Source: Candidatus Brocadiaceae bacterium
GTDB taxonomy: Bacteria; Planctomycetota; Brocadiia; SM23-32
Length of the DNA stretch: 64,000 nucleotides
NCBI GenBank assembly: GCA_012728835.1
Contig: JAAYEJ010000061.1
Span: forward strand, 1 to 64,000
Direction: 5' to 3'
Shown here: positions 6,697 to 49,640 of the stretch, piece after piece
How positions within the stretch are numbered: position 1 is the first letter of the stretch
How the letters are laid out: every line of letters begins with the position of its first letter
The notes under the pieces: generated by a model
What the model saw: the letters and a program-made list of their open reading frames with translations, nothing else
Database searches by the model: none
Told to the model about the DNA's origin: nothing
Position numbers and translations under genes: made by a program

Positions 6697-8123
6697 TGTT
6701 GGCTTGTCTCAGCGGGTGCGGGTTGTGGGGGCTCGGTGTGCGCGCGCACGTCCAGGTGCTGGATCATGTAGCGGTACTTGCCGCCCTCGGTCGGCGGGAT
6801 CTCGGCCACGCGCTCGATGGTGAAGCGGCATTCGCCGTCGCAGATGGCCTCGAAGCCCCGCCGGATCTGCTCCAGCTCCTCGGCGGTGGCGCCGGCCGCC
6901 TGCACGACGCGCAGTATGGCCGCCCCCGGCTCGCGCTGCTCGAGCTGCACCTTCTCCATCTGCGTGTACTCGTCCATGTGCGCGCCGAACAACATGCCCG
7001 TGATCGGGATCAGGCGGCCCGACTGCGTCACCACGTGGTCCTGCTCGCGCCCGGCCAGCTTGTCGATCATCGGATACTGCCGCCCGCATGCGCAATCGCC
7101 CTCGCCCCAGGCCGCGCGGTCGCCCATGCGGTAGCGGATCAGCGGCATGGCGCGGTTCATGAACCCCGTGCCCACCAGCTCGCCGACCTCGCCGGGCGCG
7201 CACGGGGCGCCGTCCGGCCGCACGATCTCCGTGACGCCATACTGGGGGTAGCAGTGGTAGCGCGCGCCGTGCTCGCATTCGCCGGCCAGGATCACCTTCT
7301 CCGTCTGGCCGTACCAGGAGTAGACGCGGCAGCCCAGCACCTCCCCGATCAGTTCCCGCTGATGGGGGAAGATCTGCTCCGAGCCGCAGAGCACCGCCTG
7401 CAGGGGCGGCAGGTCGGCGCCTGCCTCGCGCACCAGTTGCGCGAAGCGCGCGACCGCCGACGGGTAGCCATGCACGAACCGCGGCCGGAAGGCCCGGAAC
7501 GCCGCCAGGTAGTGCGGCAGGGCCTCGCGCGTCAGGTGATAGATCGAGAAGCAGCGCTCGTGGTAGACGGGATTGTCCCGGTGGAAGCGGTCGGGGCGCA
7601 CCTCGAAATGGCGGCCGCGGAACGTCGCCTTGCGGTCGCCGGGTCGGAAGCCGACGCGGCGCCACTGGTCGAGCATGAAGGCCCATTCGGTGCCGTAGCA
7701 GTCGTTGTGGAAGTGCAGTCCGAGCGGTTCGCCGGTGGAGCCGGCCGTGGTGGCGAAGTGGGTGCGGCGGGGCGGCACGCAGCGGGCGCGGAGATCGTCG
7801 GCATGGCGGCGCACGTCGTCCTTGGCCAGCAGGGGCAATTTCGGCAGGTCGTCGACTCCGGCGAAGTCGGCGGGCGACAGGCCCAGCCGGTCCATGGTGC
7901 GGCGGTAGTAGGGCACGTGCTCGTGGGCGAAGGCGACGAGTTCGCGGACGCGTTCGTCCTGAAGGGCGCGCAGTTGGCCGGCCGACCAGCGTTCGGACGC
8001 CTCCAGCAGGCGCCGGGTGCGGCGATAGGGCGCCCCCAGCCGCCAGGCGTACGGCACGGCGGCATAGGCCCGCTGCAATCCCCCCGGGCTGCGCAGGTAC
8101 AGCGCTTTCAGGCGGTTCAACAT
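6693..8123 (-). CDS. CapK-like / phenylacetate-CoA ligase-family adenylate-forming protein
   Basis: A 476-residue member of the adenylate-forming superfamily, in the CapK/PaaK branch found in capsule clusters. Visible motifs are TTAGSTGEPLGLHF near residue 128 (the P-loop-like AMP-binding segment), YGQTEKVILAGEC near 274 (the adenine/acyl-AMP motif) and MPLIRYRMGDRAAWGEGDCACGRQ near 330. The family activates a carboxylate with ATP; in capsule clusters the acyl substrate is usually unknown. The start at 8123 (MLNRLKALYL) was preferred to upstream codons because the similarity begins there and the next gene ends 10 bp upstream. Together with the adjacent ATP-grasp gene it suggests an acyl or amino-acid substituent on the polymer. 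Confidence 0.85.
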   Translation of the reverse strand: MLNRLKALYLRSPGGLQRAYAAVPYAWRLGAPYRRTRRLLEASERWSAGQLRALQDERVRELVAFAHEHVPYYRRTMDRLGLSPADFAGVDDLPKLPLLAKDDVRRHADDLRARCVPPRRTHFATTAGSTGEPLGLHFHNDCYGTEWAFMLDQWRRVGFRPGDRKATFRGRHFEVRPDRFHRDNPVYHERCFSIYHLTREALPHYLAAFRAFRPRFVHGYPSAVARFAQLVREAGADLPPLQAVLCGSEQIFPHQRELIGEVLGCRVYSWYGQTEKVILAGECEHGARYHCYPQYGVTEIVRPDGAPCAPGEVGELVGTGFMNRAMPLIRYRMGDRAAWGEGDCACGRQYPMIDKLAGREQDHVVTQSGRLIPITGMLFGAHMDEYTQMEKVQLEQREPGAAILRVVQAAGATAEELEQIRRGFEAICDGECRFTIERVAEIPPTEGGKYRYMIQHLDVRAHTEPPQPAPAETSQQ

Positions 8124-43815: not shown

Positions 43816-43864
43816 CCATCCATTGCTTCCGCCGCATCTCGACGGCAGGCAGGGGAGGAGGCCG

Positions 43865-44779
43865 GTGAGTGAGCGTCATTTCGCGGACGCGTTGCTGGAC
43901 GCATGCCGCCGCAAGCGGAGCCAGGTCGTTGTGGGGCTGGACCCGCGCGTGGACCGGCTGCCGGCCGAGCTGCGGCCGGACGCCACCTGCGAGGGGCGGG
44001 CGCAGTGCGTGGAGTCGTTCAACCGCGGCGTGATCGACGCCGTGGCCGACATCGCGGCGGCCGTCAAACTGCAGATCGCATTCTATGAGCAACTCGGTTG
44101 CGCCGGCATGGCGGCCTATGCCGCCACGATCCGATGTGCGCGCGAGCGGGGCCTGATCGTCATCGGCGACATCAAGCGCGGCGACATCGCCGGCACGGCC
44201 TCCGCCTACGCGGCGGCGCACCTGGGCGGTTCGGCCGCCATCTCGGCCGACTTCGTGGTCGACGCCGTGACCGTCAATCCCTACCTGGGCAGCGACGGCG
44301 TGCGGCCGTTCGTCGACGCCGCCGCAGCGACGGGGCGCGGGCTGTTCGTGCTGGTCAAGACCAGCAACCCGTCGGCGGTGGAGCTGCAGGACCTGAGCTG
44401 CGGCGGGGCGCTCCTGCATGAGCACGTGGCGGCGCTCGTGGAGGTCTGGGGCGCGCCGCACACGGGGGCCGGCGGCTACAGCCCGGTCGGCGCCGTTGTG
44501 GGTGCCACGTTCCCGGACGACCTGGCCCGGCTGCGCGCGCTCATGCCGCACACGCTGCTGCTGGTGCCCGGCTACGGCGCGCAGGGCGGCGGGATCGACG
44601 ACGTGCTGCCGGCCTTCGACGCGGCCGGCGAGGGCGCGGTCGTGAACTCCTCGCGCGGCATCATCTTCGCCTGGCGGCACGGCCCGCATGCCGGGCGCCA
44701 CGGCGAGGGTGCCTGGCGCGATGCCGTGCGCGCCGCTGCGGCCGAGATGCGGGACGCGCTCTGGCAGGCCACTCACTGA
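43865..44779 (+). CDS. pyrF: Orotidine 5'-phosphate decarboxylase (type 2)
   Basis: A 304-residue OMP decarboxylase of the longer (subfamily 2) kind, which makes UMP. Visible elements: VVGLDPRVDRLP near residue 20, VKLQIAFYEQLG near 68, the catalytic DIKRGDIAGTASAYAAAHLG near 95, VTVNPYLGSDGVRPFVDAAA near 133 and LVPGYGAQGGGIDDV near 235. The GTG start has GGGGAGGAGG just upstream. It converges with the HAD-YvcK gene, with only four bases between stops. Confidence 0.93.
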   Translation: MSERHFADALLDACRRKRSQVVVGLDPRVDRLPAELRPDATCEGRAQCVESFNRGVIDAVADIAAAVKLQIAFYEQLGCAGMAAYAATIRCARERGLIVIGDIKRGDIAGTASAYAAAHLGGSAAISADFVVDAVTVNPYLGSDGVRPFVDAAAATGRGLFVLVKTSNPSAVELQDLSCGGALLHEHVAALVEVWGAPHTGAGGYSPVGAVVGATFPDDLARLRALMPHTLLLVPGYGAQGGGIDDVLPAFDAAGEGAVVNSSRGIIFAWRHGPHAGRHGEGAWRDAVRAAAAEMRDALWQATH

Positions 44780-44783
44780 CGCA

Positions 44784-46478
44784 TCACGCGTGCATCCGGT
44801 CGCAGTAGATGCGGCAGATGGCGTTGGCCAGCCGGTCCGGATGGTGGCGCAGCAGGTCCTTCTTCTCCCAGAGCACCCGCCTTCCGTCCAGGTCTTCCAC
44901 CAGGTTGTCGGTGACCACCGGCACGCCCAGCGTGTGCAGGTCGTCGTCGGCCAGGACCATCTCTGCGCCCTCGGCCCGGTAGCGCGCCAGGACCTCCTGG
45001 TCGGGGCAGTGGTCGTTGAACAGGGCGACGTCCACGCTGCCGGCGTCCACGTACCCCAGGAACGTCTGCAGGTGGGCACGGGCGTTCAGTCCGTCGGTCT
45101 GGCCCGGCTGGGTCACGATGTTGCCGACGTAGATGCGCGTGGCCTTCGTGCGGGCCAGGGCGTCCCGTACGCCGGGCACCAGGAGGTTTGCGACGACGCT
45201 GGTCAGCAGGCTGCCGGGGCCCAGGACGACGATGTCGGCCTCCTGGATCTCCTCGATGGCTTCCTGGCAGGCCGCCGGTGCCGGGGGCTTCAGCAGGACG
45301 CGGCGGACGGGCGCGTGGTGGGGCGAGTGGACGTTCGCCTCGCCCTGGACGACTGTGCCGTCGGTCAGTTCGGCGCAGAGCTGGCAGTCCTCCAGCGTGG
45401 GGGTCAGCACGCGGCCCCGGATGTTCAGCAGGCGGCTCAGTTCGCGGATGCCCTGCTCGAAGCTGCCCTCCAGGTCGGACATGGCGGCGATCAGCAGGTT
45501 GCCCAGGCTCATGCCGTTGAAGCTGCCCTGGCGGAAGCGGTACTGGAACAGGCGGTTGAGCAGCCGCTCGCGCTCCCCGGGCTCGCTCAGGGCGACCAGG
45601 CAGTTGCGGGCGTCGCCGGGCGGCAGCATGCCCAGCTCGGTGCGCAACTGGCCGCTGGACCGCCCGCTGTCGGTCACCGTGACGATGCCCACGGGGTGGG
45701 CGCAGTAGGTCTTGCAGCCTTCCAGGACGATGGGCAGGCCGGTGCCGCCGCCGATCGCCACGATCCGCAGGACGTGCGGCGGCTTGTTCATGTTGGCCAG
45801 GCGCAGCAGCGTGGGCACCTGGAAGACGCCCGTGACGCGGTAGTTCGGGCGTTCGTGTTCGTCGCGCGGGGCGAAGTTGCTGAACCGCCCCTGCAGCACC
45901 TGGGCCGTGGTCATGCCCAGGTCGTTGGCCACGCGGATCTCCTCCTGGGGCCGGTCGCCTACCAGCAGCACTTCGTCGGGCCGCAGCCGGTGTCGGCGGA
46001 GCAGGTAGCGCAGGCTCTCGCTCAGCAGCGCGCCCCGGTCCACGTCGTTGATCACGATCTCGTCGAAGGCGTCCTCCAGCCCCAGTTGCCGCACCTTGGC
46101 CGACTGCCGCCGGTGCGTGCCGCTGGTGACCAGGAAGCGCCGGATGTCGCATGCGCGCAGCTTCGCGAGTGTCTCCATGACCCCCGGGAACGGCTGGATC
46201 GGGTCCACCTCGTCGCTGTTGTAGGCGCGGTAGGCTCGGTCGACCGCGTCCGGTTCCAGGCCGTACTGCCGCGCGATCTCGTCGAAGACCAGGAAGTGGG
46301 GCCCATGCATCAGGGCCAGCTTCCGTTGCAGAGCGACCGCCTCGGTCTCGCTCATCGGCAGGCCGGCCTCGACCAGCACGGCCGCGGCCTTGCGGCGGGC
46401 GGCCTCCACCAGCGTGCCCGTGCAGTCGTACAACGTGTCGTCCAGGTCGAACACCACGGCTCGCAACGGCCCGCCCAT
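44784..46478 (-). CDS. HAD hydrolase-YvcK (GNF/CofD-like) fusion
   Basis: A 564-residue protein joining two modules. Residues about 1-220 are a HAD-superfamily hydrolase (AVVFDLDDTLYDCTGTLVEA with the DxD nucleophile, FLVTSGTHRRQSAKVRQLGL, VLLVGDRPQEEIRVANDLGM). Residues about 235-564 are a YvcK/gluconeogenesis-factor domain of the CofD-like superfamily (LRIVAIGGGTGLPIVLEGCK; VTVTDSGRSSGQLRTELGML; MSLGNLLIAAMSDLEGSFEQ; YVGNIVTQPGQTDGL). YvcK binds UDP-sugars and tunes cell-wall precursor flow and shape; the HAD partner could act on a phosphorylated sugar. The ATG at 46478 is chosen for GGGAGG five bases upstream; one at 46505 is in frame. Confidence 0.88.
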   Translation of the reverse strand: MGGPLRAVVFDLDDTLYDCTGTLVEAARRKAAAVLVEAGLPMSETEAVALQRKLALMHGPHFLVFDEIARQYGLEPDAVDRAYRAYNSDEVDPIQPFPGVMETLAKLRACDIRRFLVTSGTHRRQSAKVRQLGLEDAFDEIVINDVDRGALLSESLRYLLRRHRLRPDEVLLVGDRPQEEIRVANDLGMTTAQVLQGRFSNFAPRDEHERPNYRVTGVFQVPTLLRLANMNKPPHVLRIVAIGGGTGLPIVLEGCKTYCAHPVGIVTVTDSGRSSGQLRTELGMLPPGDARNCLVALSEPGERERLLNRLFQYRFRQGSFNGMSLGNLLIAAMSDLEGSFEQGIRELSRLLNIRGRVLTPTLEDCQLCAELTDGTVVQGEANVHSPHHAPVRRVLLKPPAPAACQEAIEEIQEADIVVLGPGSLLTSVVANLLVPGVRDALARTKATRIYVGNIVTQPGQTDGLNARAHLQTFLGYVDAGSVDVALFNDHCPDQEVLARYRAEGAEMVLADDDLHTLGVPVVTDNLVEDLDGRRVLWEKKDLLRHHPDRLANAICRIYCDRMHA

Positions 46479-46590
46479 CGATGCCTCCCGGGGGATGAAT
46501 GGCACGAGACTCCCACGGCGGGATTATACCCGCCGCCGCACACGGACGCACGCACGGACGGGCACGGACGTACGCAGGGCCGGGCGCGCG

Positions 46591-47235
46591 CTATGGGGAT
46601 GCCTGAGCGCCTGCCGGCAGCACGCGCACGCGCCGGCCCTCGATCCTCAGGCGGCCTTCGGCGAACAGGTTGACGGCCTCCGGGTAGGCCGCCTTCTCCT
46701 GCTCGAACACGCGTGCGGCCAGCGTGTGTTCGTCGTCGTCTTCGAGCACGGGCACGGCCCTCTGCACGATGATGGGGCCCTGGTCGTACTCGTTGTCGGC
46801 GAAGTGCACGCTGCAGCCGCTCACCTTGCAGCCGCACTCCAGCACGGCCCGATGGACGCGGTCGCCGTAGAAGCCGCGGCCGCCGAAGGAGGGCAGCAGG
46901 GCGGGGTGGACGTTCATCACCCGCCCGGCGTAGCAGGCGGGGATGCGGTAGAGGCTGAGGAATCCCGCCAGGGCGACCAGGTGCACGTCCTCGGCCCGCA
47001 GTTCGGCGGTGACGGCGTCGGCGAATGCCTGGGCCGTGGCGAAGTCCCGGCGGCGCACGACGCAGGCGGGAATCCCGCAACGCCGGGCGCGCGCCAGACC
47101 CCCGGCGTCGGGCCGGCTGCTGACGACCTTGACCACCTGCGCCCGGAGCCGGCCGGTCTCGGACAGGTCGATGAAGTTCTGCAGGCTCCGCCCGCCGCCG
47201 CTGATCAGCACCCCAAGCCTCAACCGGTCGGCCAT
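46591..47235 (-). CDS. purN: Phosphoribosylglycinamide formyltransferase
   Basis: A 214-residue GAR transformylase of purine synthesis, using 10-formyl-THF. Characteristic segments: LGVLISGGGRSLQNFIDLSE, VVKVVSSRPDAGGLARARRC, RVMNVHPALLPSFGGRGFYG (catalytic Asn and His), and VHFADNEYDQGPIIVQRAVP (catalytic Asp). The ATG at 47235 follows AAGGAGAG at about eight bases; a longer frame from 47364 would add 43 residues of poor composition. It is separated from the HAD-YvcK gene by 112 bp containing a TATAAT-like -10 near 46523. Confidence 0.93.
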   Translation of the reverse strand: MADRLRLGVLISGGGRSLQNFIDLSETGRLRAQVVKVVSSRPDAGGLARARRCGIPACVVRRRDFATAQAFADAVTAELRAEDVHLVALAGFLSLYRIPACYAGRVMNVHPALLPSFGGRGFYGDRVHRAVLECGCKVSGCSVHFADNEYDQGPIIVQRAVPVLEDDDEHTLAARVFEQEKAAYPEAVNLFAEGRLRIEGRRVRVLPAGAQASP

Positions 47236-47281
47236 CGAATCGCTCTCCTTCGGCACCGCGTTCGCAGGACTGCCGGCCGCG

Positions 47282-47309
47282 ATTATAGCAGCCTGAGGCG
47301 GTGCGTCCA
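47282..47309 (-). promoter_or_regulatory. Candidate purN promoter
   Basis: On the minus strand TGGACG (47309-47304), 16 bases, TATAAT (47287-47282), about 47 bases before the purN ATG. The -35 is weak, the -10 is consensus. Confidence 0.4.
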
Positions 47310-47337
47310 GCGCCGGCCCGGCCGGCGCGTTTCCGCT

Positions 47338-47365
47338 TTGAATCCGGCCCGCGATGGTGTACATT
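47338..47365 (+). promoter_or_regulatory. Candidate promoter of toroid-glycosidase-like gene
   Basis: TTGAAT (47338-47343), 16 bases, TACATT (47360-47365), about 104 bases before the ATG at 47469. It diverges from the purN promoter. Confidence 0.4.
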
Positions 47366-47468
47366 GGAGCGCTCGGGGTGGCCCGCCGAGTGCCCGCGCC
47401 GGCCCCCTCCGGACCGTCATTGCCCTCCCACTGAGCCCGGCCGACCGCGCCGGGCCGAGGAGCCCCAC

Positions 47469-49640
47469 ATGCACCCGATCACAGACGCAGCCGCCACGTT
47501 CGGCGGTCGCTTCAACCTGATACTCGACCCGCACGACCACTGCGTCTACCAGAATGCCTTCGGCGACTGGCGCGAACGGCCCCTGGACCTGACGGTGGGC
47601 GTGAAGACCCCCGAGGGCGAGGTCTGGGCGCTGCCGTTCACGTCGCGGGCGCCCCACTTCCCGTTCGTCGAGCAGTTCGACACCCTGACGACCATCGAGT
47701 ACCGGGCGGTGCACCCCGGCCTCTGGATCGAGCTGCGCATGCGCATCCGGGCGCCCTTCTACCCGCGCGAGGTGCGCATCTCGACGGCGCCCGTATACTA
47801 TGTCGACGTGGAGGTGCGGCCCCTGAAGCGATTCCGCCGCATGCGCGCGGACTCGCCGCTGCCGGCCGGCGAACTGGTCTTCGAACTCCGCGGCGAAGGG
47901 CTGGAGACCGTGCGCGCCGAGGATGGGTTCGGCTACTCGTTCGCGAGCGTCCCGCCCGGATGCTGCTCGGACACGCCGCTGGACGCCCGGACCGAGTGCC
48001 GCGTGCAGGGCCTCGACGCCGAGCCGTTCGCTGCGGCCGGGCTGCGCCGCCGCTTCGACCTGACGGCCGAGCCGTCCGGCCGCCTGGCCCTGACGTGGTC
48101 GGCCTGGGCGCCGGAGCCCGTCCTGGAGGTGGCCGGCGAGAAGACGCCGTTCAAGTACCGGAGCGTCTTCGGCTCGCATGCGGACCTGCTGAAGTGGGCG
48201 TGCGTCGAGCGGGAGGAGGTCGAGACGAAGTGCGACTTCCTCGACCGCCTGTTCACCGACTGGAGTCTGGGCGGCAGCATGTCGGACATGGCGGCCCTGG
48301 CGTTCCATTCGTTCCTGGCCGACACCTGGTGGACGACCCGCAAGGACGGCCGGGACTGGTTCAGCGTGTGCGAGGGCCCCGGCTGCCGCCAGAGCGCGGT
48401 GGACGTCGAGTACAACAACGCGCTCCTCTACTTCGCCCTCTGGCCCGATCTGCTGAAGATGCTGCTGGACCAGTGGGCGGAACTCGAGAAGGACGGATCC
48501 GCCCTGCTGGGTGCGGTCGGGAAGGGCAGCGCGTTCCTCAGCCGCGACCTGGGGGCCTGCCACGTGGTCGGGCGCCCGACGCAGAGCCGCCCCATGGGCG
48601 TGGAGGCCAACGCCGACTACCTGCTGCTGCTGACCGCCTGGGCGGGCTTCACCGGCAACCTGGAGGAGGCGGCCGGCAAGGTGGCCCTGGGGCGTCGGCT
48701 GGCGGAGTTCATCTTTCGAAGCGACTCCTCCGGCAACGGCGTGCCCGACCGGGCCGTGGCCAACGCGATCGACGACGCCGGCCCGGCGCTGCAGTACGGG
48801 CCGGAGCAGGTCTACCTGGCGTTCAAGTCCCACGCCGCCCTCTGGGCCTTCGCGGAGCTGGAGCAGAAGTGCGGCCTGAAGGGCTCGCAGGCCGAACGCT
48901 GGCGCGCCTTCACCTCCAAGGGCATCAAGACCATCGAGGACGAGGGCTGGGTCGGCGACCACTACGCCGTGACCCTGGCGCGCACGACCGAGGGCATGGC
49001 CGACCCCCGCACCGACGAGCCGCTGCCGGCCGGCGAACTGACCGGGTGGAACGCATACTCCGTCTACACCACCAACGGCCTGCTCTACCTGTTCCTGAGC
49101 GCGCTCAAGATGCCGCGCTGGAAGATGAACCGCCTGCGCCGTGACGTCGAGAACGCCCACGTTGCCACCGCGACGCCCTACGGCGACCGCCACACGAGCG
49201 GCCCCGACGACATCGTGTGGTTCTCGCAGAACATGTGGCGGGACTTCGTGGCCGCCTACCTCGGCATCGACATGCTCCACAACGTCGAGCGCTACCGGGA
49301 CTACCAGGTCACGGCGGGCGATAGCTGCAGCGCCAGCCCCTACTGCGACACGACGGAGGGGAACGACGGCCGGTTCTCGTCGCGCGGGGCCGCCGTCTTC
49401 GGGGCGCCCCTGAGCGCTGCCGGCCTGGGACTGAACCGGCTGGAGAAGGACCTGGTGCTGCGGCCCGTGCGTTCGACCCTGACGGTGCCCCTGCTGCCCC
49501 TGGCGGACTGGGCGGCGATGCGCGTGCCCGTGCTGAACGTGACGAACCGCGACGGCGTGGCCGTGGCCCGCATCTCCGAGAACGATCTCCTCAAGGGGCT
49601 CACCCTGCGCCTGGAAGGCGCCGAACTCGAGCCCGAGTAG
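47469..49640 (+). CDS. (alpha/alpha)6-toroid glycosidase-like protein, DUF4965/glutaminase-A-like
   Basis: A 723-residue cytoplasmic-looking protein without signal peptide. An N-terminal beta-sandwich (residues about 1-220) is followed by a toroid domain. WFSVCEGPGCRQSAVDVEYN near residue 300 and SAFLSRDLGACHVVGRPTQS near 355 resemble the conserved boxes of DUF4965/DUF1793 (glutaminase-A-type) proteins and, more distantly, GH52 beta-xylosidases. YGPEQVYLAFKSHAALWAFA and GWNAYSVYTTNGLLYLFLSA fit the helical barrel. The ATG has GAGGAG six bases upstream. Substrate is unresolved: sugar cleavage is inferred from fold, not shown by a specific catalytic motif. Confidence 0.7.
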   Translation: MHPITDAAATFGGRFNLILDPHDHCVYQNAFGDWRERPLDLTVGVKTPEGEVWALPFTSRAPHFPFVEQFDTLTTIEYRAVHPGLWIELRMRIRAPFYPREVRISTAPVYYVDVEVRPLKRFRRMRADSPLPAGELVFELRGEGLETVRAEDGFGYSFASVPPGCCSDTPLDARTECRVQGLDAEPFAAAGLRRRFDLTAEPSGRLALTWSAWAPEPVLEVAGEKTPFKYRSVFGSHADLLKWACVEREEVETKCDFLDRLFTDWSLGGSMSDMAALAFHSFLADTWWTTRKDGRDWFSVCEGPGCRQSAVDVEYNNALLYFALWPDLLKMLLDQWAELEKDGSALLGAVGKGSAFLSRDLGACHVVGRPTQSRPMGVEANADYLLLLTAWAGFTGNLEEAAGKVALGRRLAEFIFRSDSSGNGVPDRAVANAIDDAGPALQYGPEQVYLAFKSHAALWAFAELEQKCGLKGSQAERWRAFTSKGIKTIEDEGWVGDHYAVTLARTTEGMADPRTDEPLPAGELTGWNAYSVYTTNGLLYLFLSALKMPRWKMNRLRRDVENAHVATATPYGDRHTSGPDDIVWFSQNMWRDFVAAYLGIDMLHNVERYRDYQVTAGDSCSASPYCDTTEGNDGRFSSRGAAVFGAPLSAAGLGLNRLEKDLVLRPVRSTLTVPLLPLADWAAMRVPVLNVTNRDGVAVARISENDLLKGLTLRLEGAELEPE

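Follow-up and report, generated by a model that had tools for sequence, protein, structure and literature searches.

A HAD domain fused to the UDP-sugar-binding regulator YvcK/GlmR in the anammox lineage of Planctomycetota and in Aenigmatarchaeota

In a Brocadiaceae genome (Planctomycetota, class Brocadiia), a HAD hydrolase domain and the regulator YvcK/GlmR are encoded as a single protein, and in this class YvcK normally occurs in this fused form. We propose that HAD-YvcK serves the UDP-GlcNAc (hexosamine) pathway as a control protein with two domains, in which the HAD half would act as a YvcK-set phosphatase on a pathway intermediate; we give this reading a probability of roughly 0.48, just short of even odds. 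YvcK/GlmR proteins are important for envelope homeostasis and for the survival of several pathogens, and their mode of action is debated. The window analyzed here comprises 64,000 nucleotides (positions 1 to 64,000 of contig JAAYEJ010000061.1, assembly GCA_012728835.1), and the features of the fusion locus are collected in Table 1.

Table 1. Features of the HAD-YvcK locus, in window coordinates
Feature	Coordinates	Strand	Evidence
HAD-YvcK fusion gene, 564 aa	44784..46478	-	single open frame; same architecture in 50 relatives
Shine-Dalgarno-like GGGAGG, 5 nt 5' of the ATG at 46478	46484..46489	-	sequence reading
HAD (type IA, C1 cap) domain, aa 1-223	45810..46478	-	PF00702/PF13419; phmmer PH1655; Foldseek
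HAD motif I DLDDT, aa 11-15; nucleophile D11, acid/base D13	46434..46448	-	invariant in fusions of the same type
HAD motif II T118	46125..46127	-	T or S in every fusion
HAD motif III region, aa 145-155 DVDRGALLSES, without canonical KxP lysine	46014..46046	-	alignment with PH1655, adjacent standalone HADs and archaeal fusions
HAD motif IV GDRPQEE, aa 174-180 (D175, E180)	45939..45959	-	G174, D175, E180 invariant
Conserved interdomain segment, aa 198-236	45771..45887	-	I215, Q220, P222, L227, P234 nearly invariant; pLDDT mostly 83-94
YvcK/GlmR domain, aa 237-560	44799..45770	-	TIGR01826; 2o2z, TM 0.92 on target
VTVTDSGRSSG, aa 266-276; Ser271 at second Asp of GlmR DD motif; Arg273 for Gly	45651..45683	-	per-group residue counts
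Y500 = B. subtilis Y265 (UDP-GlcNAc binding, PMC5482804)	44979..44981	-	invariant in fusions
R544 = B. subtilis R301 (UDP-GlcNAc binding, PMC5482804)	44847..44849	-	invariant in fusions
purN-like formyltransferase, upstream, same strand, 112 bp from fusion	46591..47364	-	PF00551, 136 bits
pyrF (OMP decarboxylase), convergent with fusion	43853..44779	+	PF00215, 86.7 bits

The gene is one unbroken frame with an ATG start, and its product carries the HAD domain at the N-terminus and a complete YvcK/GlmR domain at the C-terminus. The HAD half matches the Pfam families PF00702 and PF13419 (74.6 and 70.5 bits, both over aa 6-194), and the YvcK half matches PF01933 (305.8 bits, aa 239-526) and the NCBIfam model TIGR01826 (304.7 bits against a cut-off of 196, aa 239-557). 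The protein is not a member of the CofD (2-phospho-L-lactate transferase) family TIGR01819, scoring 25.5 bits against a cut-off of 257.45, and it is the only CofD/YvcK gene product in its genome. In a Foldseek search with the AlphaFold2 model of the fusion (mean pLDDT 82, pTM 0.84), the YvcK half retrieved B. halodurans YvcK (2o2z), and the HAD half retrieved PH1655 (2hoq) and N-acylneuraminate-9-phosphatase (NANP); by phmmer, PH1655 is the nearest solved HAD (70 bits). The sequence-only reading had described this frame as a HAD phosphatase fused to YvcK, which the Pfam, NCBIfam and structure matches bear out. Its own candidate for an artifact, two genes joined through a sequencing error, is ruled out by the occurrence of the same fusion, with the same junction and a conserved linker, in 50 related proteins.

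Within the YvcK half, T246, N453, Y500 and R544 are invariant among the fusions, according to per-group residue counts, and correspond to T14, N218, Y265 and R301 of B. subtilis, the UDP-sugar-binding residues of GlmR (PMC5482804). The uridyltransferase site of GlmR includes two consecutive aspartates (Bs D38-D39, Lm D40-D41; PMC10128056, PMC13046274). D270 and N431 of this site are kept in the fusion, and the second Asp is replaced by Ser271; S, C, T or A occupies this position in the 30 tree rows that hold a HAD-YvcK fusion of the window type. Because of this replacement, the uridyltransferase activity of the fusion is predicted to be weak or absent. The second Asp is also missing from several standalone YvcKs and is therefore not family-defining. 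A Gly-to-Arg replacement at residue 273 distinguishes the HAD-fused clade and its close archaeal kin.

Against the control-protein reading, none of the NCBIfam functional (equivalog) HAD models scored over its cut-off against the fusion protein; TIGR02253 (CTE7) also remained below its own (93.6 bits against 169.75). In its favor, N-acylneuraminate-9-phosphatase, an amino-sugar phosphatase, is among the nearest solved HADs (Foldseek, phmmer). In the alignment, D11 and D13 of motif I and the acidic pair D175 and E180 of motif IV are invariant among the fusions, and motif II has T or S throughout. The catalytic DxD pointed out earlier is thus present as D11-L-D13, but the KxP lysine of motif III is absent from every bacterial fusion aligned, with only R148 nearby in the window protein. 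The lysine is kept in PH1655, in the archaeal fusions (KDP) and in the standalone HADs adjacent to the fusion. Because it is missing, catalysis by the bacterial fused HAD is likely rather than assured, and the enzyme may be slow or inactive; another basic residue, e.g., K128, could stand in for it.

The same residues bear on the main alternative, according to which the bacterial fused HAD is a pseudo-phosphatase and the fusion a two-input sensor of hexosamine phosphate and UDP-GlcNAc that regulates GlmS. The old active site would bind, e.g., GlcN-6-P without turnover, and an adjacent intact HAD paralogue would supply a phosphatase where one is needed. We consider this scenario unlikely. The loss of the lysine from the bacterial fusions but not from the adjacent standalone HADs or the archaeal fusions agrees with it, as does the HAD tree, in which the standalone HADs encoded beside the fusion in several bacterial families form a separate sister group of the fused domains. 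However, a pure binder would have no need for an invariant motif I Asp pair, for D175/E180 of motif IV or for T/S in motif II, and the Brocadiaceae genome under study has no second close HAD paralogue at E <= 0.001.

Species genomes were scanned with six peptides of the window protein as queries, a choice that hardly sampled phyla outside the groups named here. Brocadia, Jettenia, Scalindua and further Brocadiaceae yielded full-length relatives that are 50-68% identical to the window protein, and an Aenigmatarchaeota genome yielded one with 39% identity. Among the 392 Planctomycetota genomes drawn for comparison, 38 belong to the anammox class Brocadiia, and about 36 of these carry the fusion (two of the 36 copies are incomplete), as do four planctomycete genomes from outside the class (G114, G130, G145 and G160). 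The YvcK of the remaining Planctomycetota, where present, is standalone, with matches starting at residue 202 or later, and no fusion was found among the listed matches from 193 Omnitrophota genomes, matches whose starts fall within the YvcK half or shortly ahead of it. The search for the same architecture, proposed earlier as a means of dating the fusion, thus found it class-wide; the fusion is old and not local to a single genome. At one locus (L018:5992-7702), it is split into two overlapping frames with a break near 7030, probably by an assembly frameshift. Two frames of 876-886 aa (L059, L060) gave the appearance of an extra N-terminal domain, which was rejected, since the added residues come from reading GC-rich DNA upstream of the HAD start and are of low complexity.

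Orthologous fusions occur in two of the 156 Aenigmatarchaeota genomes (G403, locus L017, and G531, locus L108) and are about 51% identical to each other. Most of the archaeal genomes compared are probably metagenome bins; contamination is an unlikely source of the two archaeal fusions, given that the L017 contig also encodes an archaeal CTP-dependent riboflavin kinase and an archaeal-type PheRS, and that an archaeal-type ProRS adjoins the fusion in L108. In the YvcK-domain tree (74 rows), the bacterial fusions group with archaeal YvcKs, and the standalone YvcKs of other Planctomycetota group with those of Omnitrophota and Firmicutes. Forcing the fused and standalone planctomycete YvcKs together made the tree 88.8 log units worse (AU p about 1.6e-58), which rejects a local fusion of a vertically inherited planctomycete YvcK. 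A single origin of all orthologous fusions is compatible with the data (p 0.54), and the HAD tree likewise unites the fused domains, those of archaea among them, with modest support (81/75). The simplest reading of these trees is that there was probably one fusion event, after which the ready-made fusion crossed between domains. The greater diversity of the related archaeal forms tends to favor transfer from archaea to bacteria rather than the reverse. The usual anammox form of this regulator is therefore kin to archaeal proteins and not to those of other Planctomycetota.

The archaeal loci link the fusion to UDP-GlcNAc synthesis. In L017, a tight row of genes on one strand consists of glmS, a GNAT acetyltransferase, HAD-YvcK, an archaeal GlmU-type nucleotidyltransferase and an archaeal GlmM-type mutase. 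Among the 19 Aenigmatarchaeota YvcK loci read, most sit with glmS, glmU or glmM. A HAD is fused or adjacent to YvcK in 13 of these 19 loci. The same is true of none of 14 control loci, at which Omnitrophota and Planctomycetota encode a standalone YvcK (Fisher p 4.7e-5; the test takes no account of common descent, and the HAD profile came in part from the same archaeal loci). Among the bacterial loci read, glm genes were seen beside the fusion only in the Scalindua-type family (L068, L071 and L020), where glmU and glmM, encoded on the opposite strand, come after the fusion and a second HAD; both genes match archaeal-type models (468 bits against a cut-off of 292 and 590 against 447, respectively). 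Neither rapZ/yvcJ nor whiA was found beside the fusion in any locus read. The vicinity of these two genes, cited in the sequence-only reading as usual for YvcK, does not apply to the window, where the neighbors of the fusion are purN, pyrF, a pfkB-type kinase and a TPR protein; the placement beside purN and pyrF, with no glm genes, speaks against the control-protein reading. A 779-aa frame also lies in this part of the window (47301-49640, plus strand), of which the part 47466-49637 has no Pfam match.

HAD domains have joined this pathway in several other arrangements. A CTE7-like HAD is N-terminal to YvcK in L017 and L108 and C-terminal to it in L113. A short HAD with the motif FDLEDVL, weakly similar to the glucose-1-phosphatase YihX, is N-terminal to YvcK in L109-L111, and a HAD similar to this type is C-terminal to GlmM in L114. 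Yet another sort of HAD is fused to GlmU in L116 and stands alone beside GlmU in L115, L152 and L154. The HADs joined to YvcK, GlmM and GlmU are thus of different kinds, apparently the result of independent, repeated joins. Such recurrence strongly hints at a shared step and is the best evidence that the HAD acts in the pathway of UDP-GlcNAc synthesis. Three further features of these clusters were observed. The L114 cluster, with its GlmM-HAD gene beside YvcK, includes a nagB-like glucosamine-6-phosphate deaminase gene (L114:3922-5871 and L114:6899-7690, both plus strand). In L116, a second, beta-phosphoglucomutase-like HAD gene lies upstream of the archaeal glmU with its C-terminal HAD (L116:4478-6436, minus strand). 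The archaeal glmS frame of the same locus encodes 1085 aa (L116:8747-12001, minus strand) and has an in-frame insert after about residue 71 that matches intein-containing models and is probably an intein.

Two other roles of the HAD half can be weighed against these arrangements. An inorganic pyrophosphatase or a UMP/nucleotide phosphatase would pull uridyl transfer forward or clear by-products and would not be a brake on hexosamine phosphates. The HADs fused to or beside archaeal GlmU (L116, L115, L154) would suit such a role, and the HAD half does match the PpaX and pyrimidine nucleotidase models weakly. These matches are far below cut-off, though, and GlmM, the fusion partner in L114, neither makes pyrophosphate nor uses a nucleotide, which leaves this role improbable. 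Alternatively, the HAD may be a phosphatase that serves in metabolite repair or housekeeping; its attachment to YvcK would then be neutral, and the two halves would work independently. HADs are abundant and promiscuous, and the bacterial gene is mostly away from glm genes; yet a neutral join would hardly be expected to persist almost throughout the class and keep its interdomain segment conserved, or to recur as repeatedly as the association of HADs with UDP-GlcNAc genes has. We regard it as about equally improbable.

The genome containing the window has glmS (753.7 bits), and no gene scored over cut-off for GlmM or for GlmU with either the bacterial or the archaeal model. A UDPGP-family gene is over cut-off (115.6 bits), and UDP-GlcNAc may be made by a UDPGP-type enzyme in this genome. 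Within the class Brocadiia, the archaeal-type GlmU model TIGR03992 is over cut-off in 28 of 68 genomes, which suggests the presence of further archaeal-type genes of the UDP-GlcNAc pathway in this class.

In the proposed mechanism, the YvcK/GlmR half would bind the end product UDP-GlcNAc and probably contact GlmS, as GlmR does in Bacillus. The HAD half would dephosphorylate a pathway intermediate (GlcN-6-P, GlcN-1-P or GlcNAc-1-P), its activity being set by the ligand on the YvcK half, so that plentiful UDP-GlcNAc would trim the flux into cell-envelope precursors. Direct stimulation of GlmS by GlmR is known from B. subtilis, where UDP-GlcNAc abolishes it (PMC7525490). A HAD that shares its polypeptide with YvcK and its operon with glmS, glmU and glmM agrees with a phosphatase that is set by UDP-GlcNAc and acts on a hexosamine phosphate. 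The phosphatase activity, the substrate and the coupling between the halves are the parts of the scheme that we infer. The earlier suggestion that the fusion combines sensing with removal of a phosphorylated precursor gains from the archaeal glmS, glmU and glmM context and the retained UDP-sugar-binding residues, but its removal part is weakened by the loss of the motif III lysine in the bacterial fusions. A broader version, in which HADs were repeatedly recruited as a general control of UDP-GlcNAc synthesis in the archaeal line and, by transfer, in anammox bacteria, with YvcK as the UDP-GlcNAc-gated switch on a hexosamine-phosphate phosphatase, is conceivable but doubtful.

The occurrence of the fusion or its look-alikes among archaeal UDP-GlcNAc genes suggests a new way of controlling UDP-GlcNAc supply. 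Anammox bacteria do carry peptidoglycan (PMC4432595). The proposal offers a protein family of disputed function both a partner activity and a pathway. If the broader version is true, the YvcK-gated phosphatase would be a metabolite-level feedback brake distinct from RapZ, from the glmS ribozyme and from the stimulation of GlmS by GlmR. No published description of a HAD-YvcK fusion was found in the open-licence literature searched.

The fusion can be compared with several known systems. It resembles the YvcK/GlmR proteins (CuvA, GNF; TIGR01826) of Firmicutes and Actinobacteria over its whole C-terminal half, in the 2o2z fold and in the UDP-GlcNAc-binding residues, and differs from them by its N-terminal HAD, by Ser271 in place of the second Asp and by Arg273 in place of Gly. 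The rapZ/yvcJ and whiA neighborhood, which the fusion lacks, is a habit of some Gram-positive members and not a definition of the family. The HAD half is similar to subfamily IA proteins near TIGR02253/PH1655 and NANP in its C1 cap, DLDDT, the T/S of motif II and GDxxxxE; unlike the TIGR02253/PH1655-type HADs, it falls below the TIGR02253 cut-off, is fused to YvcK and, in bacterial forms, has no motif III lysine. In RapZ/YvcJ-GlmR of B. subtilis and RapZ-GlmY/GlmZ of E. coli, GlmS is under feedback by UDP-GlcNAc or GlcN-6-P (PMC7525490), and a partner is likewise linked to GlmR, whereas the linked partner in the fusion is a HAD hydrolase and not a RapZ-like protein. Finally, HAD phosphatases also share a chain with another protein of their own pathway in the mannitol-1-phosphate dehydrogenase/phosphatase MtlD (7ocu) and in the HAD-terpene cyclase drimenol synthase (PMC12365925). 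In both of these the partner is a metabolic enzyme, whereas in HAD-YvcK it is a ligand-binding regulator.
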